The notes below the pieces were generated by a model, which saw only the letters and a list, made by a program, of their open reading frames with translations, was not told the DNA's origin and searched no databases. Of a DNA stretch of 64,000 nucleotides, positions 48,840 to 64,000 are shown piece after piece (the stretch's first letter is position 1; each line of letters starts with the position of its first letter). Location: the NCBI GenBank assembly GCA_030949565.1, contig JAUZSK010000027.1, positions 1 to 64,000 of the forward strand, written 5' to 3'. Origin of the DNA: Enterobacterales bacterium. Its GTDB lineage: Bacteria > Pseudomonadota > Gammaproteobacteria > Enterobacterales > Kangiellaceae. The position numbers and the translations under genes are program-made.

Positions 48840-50208
48840 CTAATAACTATCCTCATAAGCCGGAGCATAATTCACAAAGCGGTTAAAATGCCCTTGAAAA
48901 GTCACTTTTACGGTTCCGATAGGACCATTTCTCTGCTTGCCAATAATTATCTCAGCTAAACCCTTGTGTTCAGTTTCTGGGTTATACACTTCATCCCGAT
49001 AGATAAAGCAAATAAGATCAGCATCCTGCTCAATCGCACCTGATTCACGCAAATCAGACATTACCGGGCGACGGTCGGCTCGTTGTTCGAGAACGATTCA
49101 GTTGAGACAGTGCGACGACAGGACAATTAAGCTCTTTTGCTAGGGCCTTTAATGAGCGGGAAATTTCCGAGACTTCTTGGGTTCGATTCTCAGACATTCC
49201 GGGTACGCGCATCAGCTGTAAATAATCAATTAATATCAGTGAAAGTTGCCCGTGTTCACGGGTTAATCGACGAGCACGAGTACGAACTTCGGTGGGTGAT
49301 AAGCCGGCCGAATCATCAATAAAAAGTTTGCAGTTATTCTTAATAATATTACTGGCAACGGAAAGATTATCCCAATCACGATCATCCAGAGCGCCAGTTC
49401 TTAATTTGGTGGCATCAATGCCGCCAATGGAGGCAAATGAACGCATTAACAAGGACTGAGAAGGCATTTCCATACTAAAGATTACCACCGGTTTATCGCC
49501 ATGAATGGCTGCATATTCGGCCATATTCATTGCCACGGTGGTCTTACCCATTGAAGGTCGACCAGCCACAATGACTAAATCGGCGGGTTGCAAGCCAGAA
49601 GTCATTTGATCAAAATCTGTAAATCCGGTTGCCAGCCCTGTTATACCGCCCTTCGACGCCTGAATTTCTTCTAATCGATCCAGTGCTTTGGGTAAAATGG
49701 CAGACACAGCTTCTGGTCCTGTGCCCTTACTTTCGCGCTCTTCGGCAATTTTAAATACTTTGCTTTCAGCTAAATCGAGCAGTTCATCAGGTTTGCGACC
49801 TTTTGGCTCATAAGCCGCATCAGCTATTTCATTGGCGACTCCGATGAGCGAGCGCAATACCGCTCGTTCTCTTACGATATCGGCATAAGCACCAATATTA
49901 GAAGCACTCGGCGTATTTTTGGCGAGATCAGCAATGTAGGCTAATCCTCCTATTTCATCGGCTTCACCTTCTTGTTCTAAAAATTCAAACAGGGTCACCA
50001 CATCCATCGGACGAGAATTTTCTGCTAGATAATGCAGTGCACGAAAGATTAGACGATGCTCATTGCGGTAAAAGTCTTCCGAAACAATTTTTTCCGATAT
50101 TTTTTCCCAAGCATCATTGTCAAGAATCAAACCACCTAAAACCGACTGCTCGGCCTCTAGCGAATGAGGTGGCATTTTTAAGTTTTTTACTTGTCTGTCT
50201 TCACTCAT
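48840..50208 (-). CDS. dnaB: Replicative DNA helicase DnaB, one apparent frameshift
   Basis: ORF 49054..50208 ([53 protein letters not shown]) continues in ORF 48840..49061 ([29 protein letters not shown]). Confidence 0.93.
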
Positions 50209-55231: not shown

Positions 55232-56500
55232 CTACGAACTTTTAAAACCGATCTTGATATCTTCTTGCTCTTCTAATAAATAAGTTAAGAGCGTTTCCCA
55301 CGAGCTAAAAATGAAAAAATAGATTGCGCCTCTCAGCTTTTCCCATAAGTGGCGTTTTGAGCCAAATTTTTTGCGGCAACCTTGATAAACCTTATCCGTC
55401 AATTCAAATATTTGATGAAAGTAAAATGCTCGCAAGGTGATCAGATACAAATTGTAATTCAAATAGTGTTTACCATGACCATAATTGTGCTCTATACAAT
55501 AGCCTTGGTTCTTCAAGGTATTGAAGCATTCATTTTCTATTTTCCACCGGCATCGACCAGCCTTAGCCATTTTAATAATATTTTTTTTGTTTATTTTTAC
55601 GTCTGTCACCCAGCTATTTGTTGAGGTCACTTTTCCTTTCTCGTTAATGATTTTATATTCAAAATAATTAACCTCTACAGCGTCCGCTTGACCATGTAAG
55701 GGAACTTTATTTTTCCAACGATACTGATGAGTGCGACCTTTTGCATCTTTTATTTCCAAGCAAGGCAATTCAGGGAAGTCGTTTAACCATTCAAAAGATA
55801 TTGATGATCGCCAGGTTTACACACGAAAATATAGTGCATGTTGTTATCGAGCACTTTTTCAATGAGTGGTTGATGAGACATTAAACCGTCACCACAGATC
55901 AAGAACTTTTGACGCGGGTGGGTTGCTTTGAGTCTATCTATAAAGCGTTTAGCGGCATTTGTTTCACAATCTTGTTTTTTACTTCCATCTGTATTTTGGA
56001 TCGCTTCAGGCATAACAGGAATAACTTGTTTTTTATCGGGATGCATAATGGCTCCTGTAAAACAGCATGGTTATAGGTTTTTCACCTGCCTTATGTTCTT
56101 TATGCAAGCAGTGTTCACAACTTATTTTCTTTGAACTATAGTATTGAGTTCCATCAATACTGCACATTAAAACGTTTGGTAAAATGGCATAGCCTTCCAG
56201 ATGTTTATGGCGTCTTAAACGGCTGAAGAAATCTTTGAAAATGGGTACCATAGCGTCACTTGGGATGTTATCTAGCACGTCTCGAAGTTGAGAACTTTGA
56301 GGTATATTTTCAATACCAAATAAGGAGCGGCAATTATTATTGCCTTGCTGATCTTCCATCTGTTGCTGAAATTTAAGTAAAGAAGGCTCTTGAAAATACA
56401 TGCACGAAAAAGCACTCATAAGAACATCTTTCTGACTGTAATAGCAACTTCCCTTTTTCGAGGATCAGAGATAGCGTTAAAATGAGAGGCCATCCGCTTG
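55232..56500 (-). pseudogene. IS4-like DDE transposase, frameshifted into three ORFs
   Basis: ORFs 56033..56419, 55783..56046, 55232..55768: SQLRDVLDNIPSDAMVPIFKDFFSRLRR; PRQKFLICGDGLMSHQPLIEKVLDNNMHYIFVCKPGDH; RCRWKIENECFNTLKNQGYCIEHNYGHGKHYLNYNLYLITLRAF. Confidence 0.75.
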
Positions 56501-57565: not shown

Positions 57566-58318
57566 TCACTTTCTGATATACCTAAAAGTAAGATTAATTC
57601 TAGAGTCAATAACTTTGGTTCTTTTGGGAACACTATGTTGCCAGTGATGCTGTAACTCCCCCATCATTATCAATAAACTACCATGAGATAAAGGGATAGA
57701 TAATTTCTGTTTGGAATAATTATGTCTTATAATAAAATCACGCTCAGCACCAAAATTTACCGAAGCTATTGTGGGGTTTATCCCTAATTCCTCTTCCTCA
57801 TCAGTATGCCAACCAATGTGGTCGTGCCCATCTCTGTACCAATTAAGTAAAACACTGTTAAACCGATGTTCGAATAATTTTTCTATTTGCATTTTTATGA
57901 AGTTTAGACCATTGTTCCAAGGAGATGGAAAAAGAGTAATCCCTGAATATGTGTATTTCTTATCATTGTCGCCATGCCATGCGGAAATACGAGGCAATAG
58001 CCTAGTTTTCCCATACATTTCTATTTCGTCTTGGTGCCACTTGATATTAGTAAAATTAACCTCATTAATACTTTTAGTAAAAACATTACGCCAGTCAATT
58101 GTAGGTTCTAGAACCTCGCTATTTTCTAGAAAATATTCCATTGAACGTTCAGAAATTTTATAACTAAAAAAACACGGACTAAAAAATAGCTTTCCGTTAG
58201 GAACCGACAACAAAAACCCTTTTCTTTCATCGTCCCACTCACTCGCATAGCCTGGTAAATTAGGCAATCTAAAAGGCAATATGTTTGTTTGTTGATGGCT
58301 AAATAGGTCCATATTCAT
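57566..58318 (-). CDS. AlkB-family 2-oxoglutarate/Fe(II) dioxygenase
   Basis: LLNWYRDGHDHIGWHTDEEEELGINPTIASVNFGAERDFIIRHNYSKQKLSIPLSHGSLLIMMGELQHHWQHSVPKRTKVIDSRINLTFRYI (HxD...H...RxNxxxR pattern). Confidence 0.92.
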   Translation of the reverse strand: MNMDLFSHQQTNILPFRLPNLPGYASEWDDERKGFLLSVPNGKLFFSPCFFSYKISERSMEYFLENSEVLEPTIDWRNVFTKSINEVNFTNIKWHQDEIEMYGKTRLLPRISAWHGDNDKKYTYSGITLFPSPWNNGLNFIKMQIEKLFEHRFNSVLLNWYRDGHDHIGWHTDEEEELGINPTIASVNFGAERDFIIRHNYSKQKLSIPLSHGSLLIMMGELQHHWQHSVPKRTKVIDSRINLTFRYIRK

Positions 58319-59669
58319 TTACCTCAAATACCAATGCCGCCATTTTTATACCATCTTGACTTGTTTCTACTTCACATAGTAGTTTTATGCCATTCTTATG
58401 AAAAACATTTCGGCACATGCAACTATAAAAAGTTTTAATCTGAGAAAAGTTATATGGACTAACGCAAATAAAAATATTATTTCCATTTATCGATTTAACA
58501 ATTAATTGAGAAAGTTGCTGAATATCATTCTTTATACAATTCATATCGAGAACATTCATAAATAAATGCAAGGTCCAATTCTCCTGCGCAGTCTGAATAT
58601 CCCGAGATATTAATTCTGAGAATTTTTTATTTACAGCTATAACATTTCCCCTAAAATTATATTTAGCTTTGTTAAGCGCATTGATTGATGGTTCAATCAA
58701 TGCAAGAGATTTGCATTGCTGCTTCCCTATCAACCCACTTAAACTTTCGAATGAAAACAAAGCCGACAACCCCTGCCCACAAGCATAATCAACAATAGAA
58801 AACGGATTCCCAAAGACTTGCTTTAGATTTATCTTAGTACCTAGCATTTTAAAAATTGCTTTTATTCTTTGTTGATGTTTTACTGCATAGCTTTTCACAT
58901 ACCAATTAAGTTGTTCTTCCGACGTAAGAATCGCAGTACCACGTTCTAACTCTTGTTGCACCATATTTAAATATGCGCCATTAAATTTGGATAGCTTTTT
59001 ATCTGCTTCATTTTTTATGGTCTTAAACTTTCTAGACGGAAAGGCTACAAAACCTTCAATTTTATATCTATTTTTTAATCTTTCAGAATTATAGACAATA
59101 TATTCCCCGCCTCGATCTGCGTTTCGAACTTCCGCATCAACCAAAGATGAATTAATTGACAATTTAAGATTGGTGCCGACTCTATGTATAACTTTATCTT
59201 CAATAAGTCTCTGTTCCAACTCTTCATTAGGGTAGCCCAAATCCCTAGCTATCGAACTAAATGATTTCATTGGTTTATTTACCAATAGTTTACTCGGTAT
59301 TTCTCTAACATCTTCTACAAAATACTTTTTATTAAAAGAATTTTTCTTTTCCCACTCAATAATTTTCTTGCTGCCTAAACTAGTGCTTTTTAACATTTTA
59401 TTGATATCATCAAATAGTGTTGGCATATCATTTTGTAACAAAAGAATTCCATTTAAGTTAGGATCCAATTTCTTCTTATTGTCTACCCTGTAAGAAGGTC
59501 GAATAAAGCGAACATGGCATTTCAAACCAAACAATGCCTTTGCTCTATTTTTGGATTTTTCTATTTTCTCACTGAGGTTGTTATCATAGTTTGAACTTAC
59601 ATTAAAATAATAAAACTCGCCGTTGTTCAATATCCATAGACTTAGCTCGCTAAAACTAACGTCTTCCAA
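58299..59669 (-). CDS. Protein with wHTH-like segment and class I SAM-methyltransferase-like domain; probably the C-terminal part of a larger CARF-containing protein
   Basis: FSIVDYACGQGLSALFSFESL (motif I), SLALIEPSINAL, NWTLHLFMNVLDM; frame is open upstream to ~59795 without ATG/GTG and overlaps ORF 59758..60426. Confidence 0.7.
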   Translation of the reverse strand: MEDVSFSELSLWILNNGEFYYFNVSSNYDNNLSEKIEKSKNRAKALFGLKCHVRFIRPSYRVDNKKKLDPNLNGILLLQNDMPTLFDDINKMLKSTSLGSKKIIEWEKKNSFNKKYFVEDVREIPSKLLVNKPMKSFSSIARDLGYPNEELEQRLIEDKVIHRVGTNLKLSINSSLVDAEVRNADRGGEYIVYNSERLKNRYKIEGFVAFPSRKFKTIKNEADKKLSKFNGAYLNMVQQELERGTAILTSEEQLNWYVKSYAVKHQQRIKAIFKMLGTKINLKQVFGNPFSIVDYACGQGLSALFSFESLSGLIGKQQCKSLALIEPSINALNKAKYNFRGNVIAVNKKFSELISRDIQTAQENWTLHLFMNVLDMNCIKNDIQQLSQLIVKSINGNNIFICVSPYNFSQIKTFYSCMCRNVFHKNGIKLLCEVETSQDGIKMAALVFEVNEYGPI

Positions 59670-59757: not shown

Positions 59758-60426
59758 CTATATAAAACATTCCAATCCCACTTTTCTATTTTTTACTTCC
59801 TCAAGTAGATTAACACAGCCACCTTCTACAATCATATTAGGCTCAAACATTTTTGCTTTTTCATCTTGGCCTAAAAACCTTTTAAGACCAACTTCCTTTA
59901 ACCCTGCATTCATCATTTTCTGATCAATTGAAAATCCTTTAGTTTTTACAGTGCAATTATTATTCTCATAATGTGACGAAAACGCAAGCCACCCAGCCTC
60001 GACTTCCTTGTAACATACACTAATTCCAGGCCTACTATTTATTAGGTTAATAGCAGCTAAAAAATGTAATTTGTTACCTCCATTTGCATTAATAATTAAA
60101 TCCTTGGTATTTATTTTACTCTGCCAGCTTGCTATCGCGTTAGTTAACGCTTCCGGAGAAGACCCATCATCGTTTTCCGATGGCTCGTGAAGCTCAATGG
60201 TAATTTTTTTGTCAAATAAATTAACTATTCTTTTAAGTTTAAGTGCCGGTATACCGGACATAGCTTTATGGTTTGTGCAATAAATAAATACCTGTTTTAT
60301 TTTTCTTCCATTGTAACCATGATAAAATAAAAGACTTTCTATATTTGGTATGAGTGCGTTAGGGCTTGCTATCAATACTAGTGATTTTGGGCTGACTTCC
60401 TTATTTTCAATATTCTTATTTTTCAT
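59758..60426 (-). CDS. CARF-like (DUF1887/Card1 N-terminus-like) sensor domain protein
   Basis: SLVLIASPNALIPNIESLLFYHG...KDLIINANGGNKLHFLAAINLINSRPGISVCY: Rossmann start plus N-x-x-G-G-x-K-hhh-x-x-A motif of CARF domains. Confidence 0.65.
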   Translation of the reverse strand: MKNKNIENKEVSPKSLVLIASPNALIPNIESLLFYHGYNGRKIKQVFIYCTNHKAMSGIPALKLKRIVNLFDKKITIELHEPSENDDGSSPEALTNAIASWQSKINTKDLIINANGGNKLHFLAAINLINSRPGISVCYKEVEAGWLAFSSHYENNNCTVKTKGFSIDQKMMNAGLKEVGLKRFLGQDEKAKMFEPNMIVEGGCVNLLEEVKNRKVGLECFI

Positions 60427-60537: not shown

Positions 60538-62456
60538 CTATCCTGAATAACTAATAGCAATACTATGATTTGGATCGCCGCTCCATCGGGTTCTGAGTCC
60601 TATTTTTTTCGCTTCATTGACAATATCATTTCCAATATCGATCGCCAATTCACTGGTCTCAGCAAAAAAATAGATACAAACACTTGTTAACGGCGTGCGA
60701 TGACCATCTTCATCGTTTTCACATTCTTTACGATAGAACTTTAAGTCCGTATAGCACATTTTTGCTGTTTCTGGTGATGAAATACCAAAATGTTCCCACA
60801 GTTCTTTGCTTGAATATAGCATCGATTCAACCCTTTCCCACCCATGATCACCAGGCGACCAGCCACCATTATCGATATTGACGGCTACAATACCCATCTC
60901 CAGTAGCTTTTCTAATAACATTTTTACTTTTTTGCAAAGTGATTTAGTGATGTTGTTTACTCTTTGCATATTTCCTTGCCTTGTCATTTCACATTGTTTG
61001 ACAATCAAAGATGCTTCGTTTGGTCCAATAATGGATTGAATGGCTTGTTTAGCAATGAGGCGAGCAGCTGATCGTTTATCCCTTACCAGTATAAATTTCC
61101 ATAATTCAAAAAATACGAGTGAATGAAAAGAGTAAATAAAACGTAATCGCCGAAGGGATATAAAATTTCGCCTTTCAAATTCACTTATTTTATCTCGTAA
61201 TAGCGTAAAATCAAAATTAATAGATTGCGAATGATTAATCAAAGCATTTACCGCTAGTTTATTTTTAAGTCGAATCGCTATAACTAACGCACTCGACAGT
61301 TGTTCTTCCGACCAATGTTTTTTACTAGCCAATAAATGAATAAATTGATCATCATAAATAGAGATAAGCGCTCGACTTAGGTATTTTGTTTTTCACTAAA
61401 TATTTATTTAATTTGATTCGTACGTCTTTTTTCAGTAGCGTCAAATCAAGACCTTTTTTCAACATCAGTAGAATGATTTTTCTTTTTTCAGTTTCTATAC
61501 AGCAATCAAGAACCATATTTATTGGGGTCTTCTTCGTATTTTTCGAATGCACAATATTCGGATCTGCCCCCTTTTCCAATAAAAATATCACAAAAGCAGT
61601 CTCGAAATATATATCCATGAATTCGAGAGCTTGATGGAGCGGAGTTTCACCCTCTTCATTATAGGCATTAATGTCAACATGATAGCTTAAAAGCTGTGAA
61701 AAATAGTCGCGTAATTTCTGATGGTTGCTCATGGCATAGGTAAAAAAGTCTCACCATTATATTTTGCATTAATATCAAATTGGCAATTTAATCCGTTATC
61801 TATAATTTTTGGAAGGCGTAATTCCGGCAAATAATAGCCTTTCTATAGATAAGCCACAGGTTACTAAACACTGAATAATTTGAGCACAATCACCCTTAAT
61901 TAAATCGCTGAGTTCATAATTGAATTGATAATGATATTCATTAATATCCTCTCCAGCATTAGATAAAATTTGAATACTTTCAGAGTAACGCTTATTTAGT
62001 TGTTCTAAATCTGTTTTATTATTACACATTTCTAAACTTCTTTGCCATTGATAGGCAGCGTAACCTACAAATGTATAGTCTGTGTCGATTAACTCGCCTT
62101 TGCCCACATTTAAACCATTCTCTACAAAAAGGTTTAAGATTTTAACATTATCAGTTCTCAACTCTTTACCATCGAAAGCATAAAGAAGTAGGTGCAATGG
62201 TGTATGTTGAGCAAAATTTTCCTCATTAACGTCAGCGCCTTGCTTTACAATTTTCTGAATATCTTCGAAGGGTCTTTGTTCCGCTATCGCCTTGGTTAGT
62301 TCCGTGTGGTCATCAGGGGAATAGTATTCCCTTTTCTGCATACCAACTAGATTCATAGGTTTCCAAACAACCATCACCAAAAGGAGTATCAAGTATTAGC
62401 TCCAATTCATTAATTATTTGTTGTTGTTTTTCGTCAAGTTGTAATTTTTCTTCCAT
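60538..62456 (-). CDS. Large ankyrin-repeat protein (reconstructed from ORFs 61796..62392, 61352..61732, 60538..61332 plus N-terminus MEEKLQLDEKQQQIINELELILD)
   Basis: DDHTELTKAIAEQRPFEDIQKIVKQGADVNEENFAQHTPLHLLLYAF; VDINAYNEEGETPLHQALEFMDIYFETAFVIFLLEKGADPNIVH; four breaks, each at C/A/T homopolymers. Confidence 0.72.
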
Positions 62457-63906: not shown

Positions 63907-64000
63907 ATCGAGTCCTTTACAGTTATTAATCCAGATAAAATAAATTTGTTATATTTTAAGTATATCACTTAATTAGTTGAAGTCCTAAACCGTCTTAATC

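Follow-up and report, generated by a model that had tools for sequence, protein, structure and literature searches.

A conserved methyltransferase–AlkB gene pair, possibly a portable immune module, next to a putative CARF gene and a CRISPR array

Known CARF effectors are for the most part nucleases, proteases, deaminases, membrane proteins or regulators, and the Card1/Can2 CARF nucleases are ancillary effectors of type III CRISPR systems. In the 64,000-nucleotide stretch of DNA analysed here (the window), a putative CARF gene closest to Card1 precedes a candidate PD-DExK-like remnant, a resemblance to Card1/Can2 that ends at the output: in the window this appears to be a winged-helix-turn-helix (wHTH) methyltransferase (MTase) with a co-encoded AlkB, with no active PD-DExK nuclease. 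A CARF link for this AlkB subfamily is already catalogued, since the window AlkB belongs with the PADLOC model CARF_2OG (PDLC01964; 9.2e-72 over profile positions 129–350). Unlike that model, however, the AlkB matches nothing in positions 1–128, the model fails to pick up the window CARF, and CARF here goes with the MTase. Full-length CARF_2OG proteins were not found in the gammaproteobacterial, Bacteroidota and cyanobacterial samples searched.

The AlkB shares its fold family and catalytic residues with ALKBH2, ALKBH3 and the bacterial AlkB repair dioxygenases, but differs in having an N-terminal extension and a fixed MTase partner, whereas ordinary gammaproteobacterial AlkB genes are unpaired. 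The same MTase family occurs in 2CompART/2CompARG operons (PF22546/PF22545; hereafter ART/ARG), often with AlkB and DUF1848, though the window and the two-gene cassettes described below lack both ART/ARG and the SF1 helicase of those operons. A further parallel is the DarT/DarG toxin–antitoxin, in which a base modifier and a mark remover make nucleic-acid ADP-ribosylation reversible; we draw it for the logic only, claiming no homology, and the window chemistry would instead be methylation and demethylation. Neither a description of an MTase–AlkB pair nor a mention of DUF1848 was found in the literature covered, and we consider the novelty of the pair provisional. What we describe seems to be a portable module, probably with an immune role: the same predicted pair recurs in bacteria that are not related to one another, each time with other sensor genes.

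Gene organization in the window

The AlkB open reading frame (ORF) matches PF13532 (E=2.8e-29), and its closest solved structures are ALKBH3/ALKBH2 (1.5e-42 against PDB sequences). The HxD...H motif and the 2OG-binding arginines are present, with H171, D173, H228, R240 and R246 showing no variation among paired relatives; the protein is ALKBH2/3-like and has the full catalytic residue set of the nucleic-acid demethylases of that type. The N-terminal extension is about 60 aa long. A second in-frame ATG at 58312, giving a protein that begins MDLFS, is a more likely start than 58318, since most relatives begin there (MDLF) and GAGGT lies 8 nt upstream. As noted earlier, the AlkB start (58318) lies upstream of the MTase stop (58299), and the 20-nt overlap shrinks to 14 nt if translation begins at 58312. 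In most relatives, too, the two genes overlap or nearly touch (−28 to +26 nt), and the ORF overlap suggests translational coupling of the two putative enzymes.

Table 1 Features of the locus and related cyanobacterial loci (window positions unless a locus is named).
Feature	Position	Strand	Evidence or remark
AlkB-type Fe(II)/2OG dioxygenase, 250 aa	57566..58318	−	PF13532, PADLOC CARF_2OG, PDB ALKBH3/ALKBH2, invariant residues
Overlap of MTase and AlkB ORFs	58299..58318	−	20 nt; 14 nt from likely AlkB start 58312
MTase ORF as called, TTG start, 456 aa	58299..59669	−	Stop-to-stop frame open upstream to 59792
Class I SAM-dependent methyltransferase domain	58317..59027	−	DYACGQG; IEPS; HLFMNVLD; AF2, Foldseek, alignment
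Winged-HTH-like segment, shared with L070 MTase	59094..59261	−	Low-confidence AF2 and tblastn
Candidate degenerate PD-DExK-like remnant, strand-strand-helix-strand	59502..59645	−	Suggested by low-confidence AF2 and position behind Card1-like CARF
Overlap of CARF ORF and MTase open frame, A-rich stretch	59758..59792	−	35 nt; probable frame break within one gene
Card1-like CARF ORF, 222 aa, frame differs from MTase	59758..60426	−	phmmer, PADLOC, sub-cut-off Pfam
CARF-HEPN (Csm6/Csx1-like) protein, TIGR02710	62641..63906	−	TIGR02710 3.6e-46; PF09670 6.4e-24; PADLOC CARF_HEPN 1.5e-109
CRISPR array start	63992..64000	+	Repeat of 36 nt in 42 identical copies, spanning 63992-66902 of the contig
AlkB and PF11312-like MTase loci, cyanobacterial plasmids	L171 (pSYSA), L172, L173, L167, L169		

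Although the window MTase alone had no significant Pfam match (its homologs match Methyltransf_31 weakly), its C-terminal 247 residues were confidently modelled as a class I MTase fold (AF2 pLDDT 89, pTM 0.88), and alignment, AF2 and Foldseek together point to a Rossmann fold with the glycine-rich motif I DYACGQG. The motif IV of DNA amino-MTases, (D/N/S)PP(Y/F), is absent from the alignment, where the window MTase has HLFMNVLD and the family HxFSNxLD in its place; lacking this motif, the MTase was ruled out as an N6A or N4C methylase of DNA. Foldseek placed it among generic class I enzymes (including Bud23, CmoA and one chain from assembly intermediates of the human mitochondrial small subunit). 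Fold search could not name a substrate, because MTases for rRNA, tRNA, proteins and small molecules all stand among the best matches. The window protein retains the invariant residues and forms a very long branch in the MTase phylogeny, which suggests that its function may be derived. The MTase at locus L070 matches it from residue 177 onward (tblastn) and has an N-terminus with weak ANT/KilAC and PDC-S69 similarity. Neither the N-terminus of the window MTase nor the CARF ORF had homologs in plasmids, and the MTase was not found in the viral contigs searched.

A CARF domain had been placed inside the MTase; as assembled, it is instead a separate upstream ORF in another frame, overlapping the open MTase frame by 35 nt. 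This ORF is closest to Card1 (6xl1, phmmer 5.4e-4) and matches PADLOC Csx1 (4.3e-6) and CARF_PDDEXK (2.6e-5), with a score of 15.6 bits against Pfam CARF_Card1, under the cut-off of 24.6. All 174 codons preceding Met175 of the MTase frame are open. Dinucleotide shuffling never reproduced this in 20000 trials, whichever frame was read, which marks the stretch as coding now or until recently; low-confidence AF2 models place a strand-strand-helix-strand unit in it and a winged helix ahead of the MTase domain. The single-copy dnaB of the window (48864–50175, minus strand) is likewise split by a frame break, near 49075–49091. This makes indels in the metagenome-assembled genome (MAG) likely and suggests that CARF, PD-DExK-like remnant, wHTH and MTase may be one frame-broken gene; a real frameshift is also possible.

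The surroundings resemble those of a type III ancillary CARF effector in that a CRISPR array adjoins the locus: it begins at the last bases of the window and continues to the contig end at 66926, and its repeat occurs nowhere else in the genome. The CARF-HEPN, CARF, MTase and AlkB genes all share one strand. Searches of the MAG (93% complete, 94 contigs) found no RAMP protein (PF03787), only sub-cut-off matches to Cas10 (PF22335) and no cas interference genes; the array runs off its contig, and cas genes may be absent or may belong to sequence that the assembly lacks. Between the CARF-HEPN and CARF genes lie uncharacterised ORFs (60538–62392, minus strand), one with a weak DUF6891 match and one with ankyrin repeats. 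Beside the CRISPR/MTase region, ORFs at 55232–56419 (minus strand) resemble broken transposase remnants by eye, which suggests an island border.

Conservation of the pair and partners of the wider family

Pairing of the MTase with the N-extended AlkB is not due to chance. Among 369 gammaproteobacterial genomes, the same set being used for both counts, the N-extended AlkB occurred in four and the MTase in five, and all four AlkBs adjoin the MTase; with the window's own genome left out, all three remaining AlkBs fall among the four MTase genomes of 368 (p about 5e-7 by our own arithmetic). In the AlkB tree, the window protein sits in a fully supported clade (100/100) of ten rows, nine of which adjoin the MTase and one of which lies at a contig end. 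The MTase was absent from all 26 ordinary gammaproteobacterial AlkB loci examined, and viral AlkB loci also lacked it.

An MTase gene followed directly by an N-extended AlkB was found in genomes G145 (L042/L068), G300 (L043) and G140 (L044, broken), in Candidatus Thiodubiliella (L058), Flavobacteriales UWMA-0274 (L070), Rudanella (L108) and Saprospiraceae (L125), in a genome from the sample of the Calothrix phylum (G1175, L166), and on Moraxella osloensis plasmids. In Chryseobacterium (L113), Flectobacillus (L120) and Calothrix (L117), the AlkB of the pair is shorter. Same-order pairs span Gammaproteobacteria, Bacteroidota, Cyanobacteria and Moraxella plasmids. Most standalone cassettes lack CARF, and at L042 and L117 the two genes stand alone among housekeeping genes, with no nuclease. 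Elsewhere the cassette follows different putative sensors: CARF and CRISPR in the window, an ART/ARG operon at other loci, and at L070 (1643–6565) genes for a conflict-type histidine kinase (HisKin-conflict) and a receiver protein directly upstream of a wHTH-MTase and AlkB. These data support a real MTase–AlkB cassette that has moved between sensors, a behaviour that would suit an effector module and its matched partner. On one Moraxella osloensis plasmid (L004, 1796–7515), a viperin-family antiviral gene lies about 3 kb upstream of the pair.

A scan of 85,462 genomes for the MTase family gave 207 relatives, of which 80 were kept for locus counts. AlkB and/or DUF1848 lay near the MTase at 70 of these loci: AlkB alone at 8, AlkB with ART/ARG at 7, all three at 7, DUF1848 alone at 41 and DUF1848 with ART/ARG at 7. 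Nine of the ten loci with neither had less than 3.6 kb of contig upstream. DUF1848 is thus the commonest partner of the family (for example L162 5442–6566, L005 4863–5876, L056–L134), present without AlkB at 48 of the 80 loci. This family (PF08902) carries an invariant CxxxCxxC, as radical-SAM enzymes do; no relatives of it were found in the PDB. AlkB and DUF1848 exchange places beside closely related MTases (L058/L068/L070 versus L162, MTase-tree support 100/97), and again between L117 and L165 (99/91, both on long branches). Besides the MTase, a 2CompART-2CompARG protein and an SF1 helicase, ART/ARG operons contain AlkB, DUF1848 or both; at L055 (3265–8663) and about 25 related loci, mainly in Bacteroidota, such an operon is conserved and contains two apparent modify/reverse pairs. 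Fusions to a helicase (DpdF-like, RecQ-like or UvrD-like) or to LRR are seen in other MTase homologs.

Possible functions of the pair

The proposal that MTase and AlkB write and erase one mark is plausible and now better motivated: the two genes form a conserved unit, the ALKBH2/3-type catalytic residues are intact, and a putative CARF gene and a CRISPR array lie alongside. AlkB is no obligatory antidote, since some MTase genes have no AlkB nearby, most of them having DUF1848 instead. Our preferred reading, to which we give roughly an even chance, is one functional cassette in which an MTase writer and an AlkB eraser would act on a common substrate, most likely a nucleic acid. The MTase would be the effector, marking or damaging its target, and AlkB would take off N-methyl groups, so as to shield the host or reset the system; such a cassette could serve immunity. 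In the window it would probably be switched on by CARF sensing cyclic oligoadenylate from a type III CRISPR system, with CARF and MTase probably being one protein whose gene is frame-broken in the assembly. The fullest form of this proposal, a reversible, methylation-based immune effector triggered by cyclic oligoadenylate and representing one instance of a portable writer/eraser cassette plugged into CARF, histidine-kinase and ADP-ribosylation sensors, is in our view less likely than not. Several observations count against a writer and eraser: the fold names no substrate, DUF1848 without AlkB accompanies 48 of the 80 MTases, most standalone cassettes lack CARF, no RAMP protein and no above-cut-off Cas10 was found in the 93% complete MAG, the CARF Pfam score is under its cut-off and the MTase is a long branch.

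AlkB and DUF1848 have the motifs of iron enzymes, interchange beside the MTase and sometimes co-occur with it, a pattern that would also suit sequential modification, in which a methyl group added by the MTase is then oxidised or rebuilt by AlkB, or by the radical-SAM-like DUF1848, to give a hypermodified base, both proteins being writers of one mark. We consider this rather unlikely, as the closest relatives of this AlkB, ALKBH2/3, are known as demethylases, and the two-gene cassette lacks a conserved transferase to extend the mark. The helicase- and nuclease-rich contexts of the wider family are consistent with a division of labour over different methyl groups, the MTase protecting or labelling self nucleic acid and AlkB or DUF1848 stripping or repairing other modifications, such as those of phage DNA; AlkB copies of jumbo phages have been proposed to reset methyl marks (PMC7824862). 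Since the cassettes at L042 and L117 stand without a nuclease, this arrangement appears less probable still. Lower again we place a protein or small-molecule substrate, with AlkB-type chemistry serving the same pathway: Foldseek neighbours do include such MTases and the DNA amino-MTase motif is lacking, but AlkB groups by sequence with the ALKBH2/3 nucleic-acid enzymes, and a wHTH-like segment precedes the MTase in both the window and L070. That AlkB simply repairs alkylation, beside an unrelated MTase, was the original alternative and would fit the mostly unpaired AlkB genes of bacteria; it is very improbable, because every N-extended AlkB found, across a broad taxonomic range, has the MTase as its neighbour, save one copy that lies at the end of a contig, and this fixed partner led us to reject AlkB as an unlinked repair gene.

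If the preferred writer/eraser reading is true, a CARF-linked MTase encoded together with a demethylase would extend the outputs of CARF proteins to reversible base methylation, and some of the many bacterial AlkB genes would have a physiological reason outside alkylation repair. Our data also point to DUF1848 as an alternative partner with a related job, and the MTase, AlkB and DUF1848 families can all be tested by simple expression assays.

A second methyltransferase type beside AlkB in cyanobacterial plasmids

AlkB genes were mostly unpaired in a random cyanobacterial sample. On plasmids of Calothrix brevissima and Nostoc, a short-form AlkB adjoins a class I MTase-like protein of PF11312, and on Synechocystis pSYSA and plasmids of Planktothrix and Picosynechococcus it adjoins a divergent PF11312 relative. 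On pSYSA (L171, 11860–13383), the AlkB and PF11312-like MTase genes lie directly behind a type III-B cas cluster and CRISPR array.
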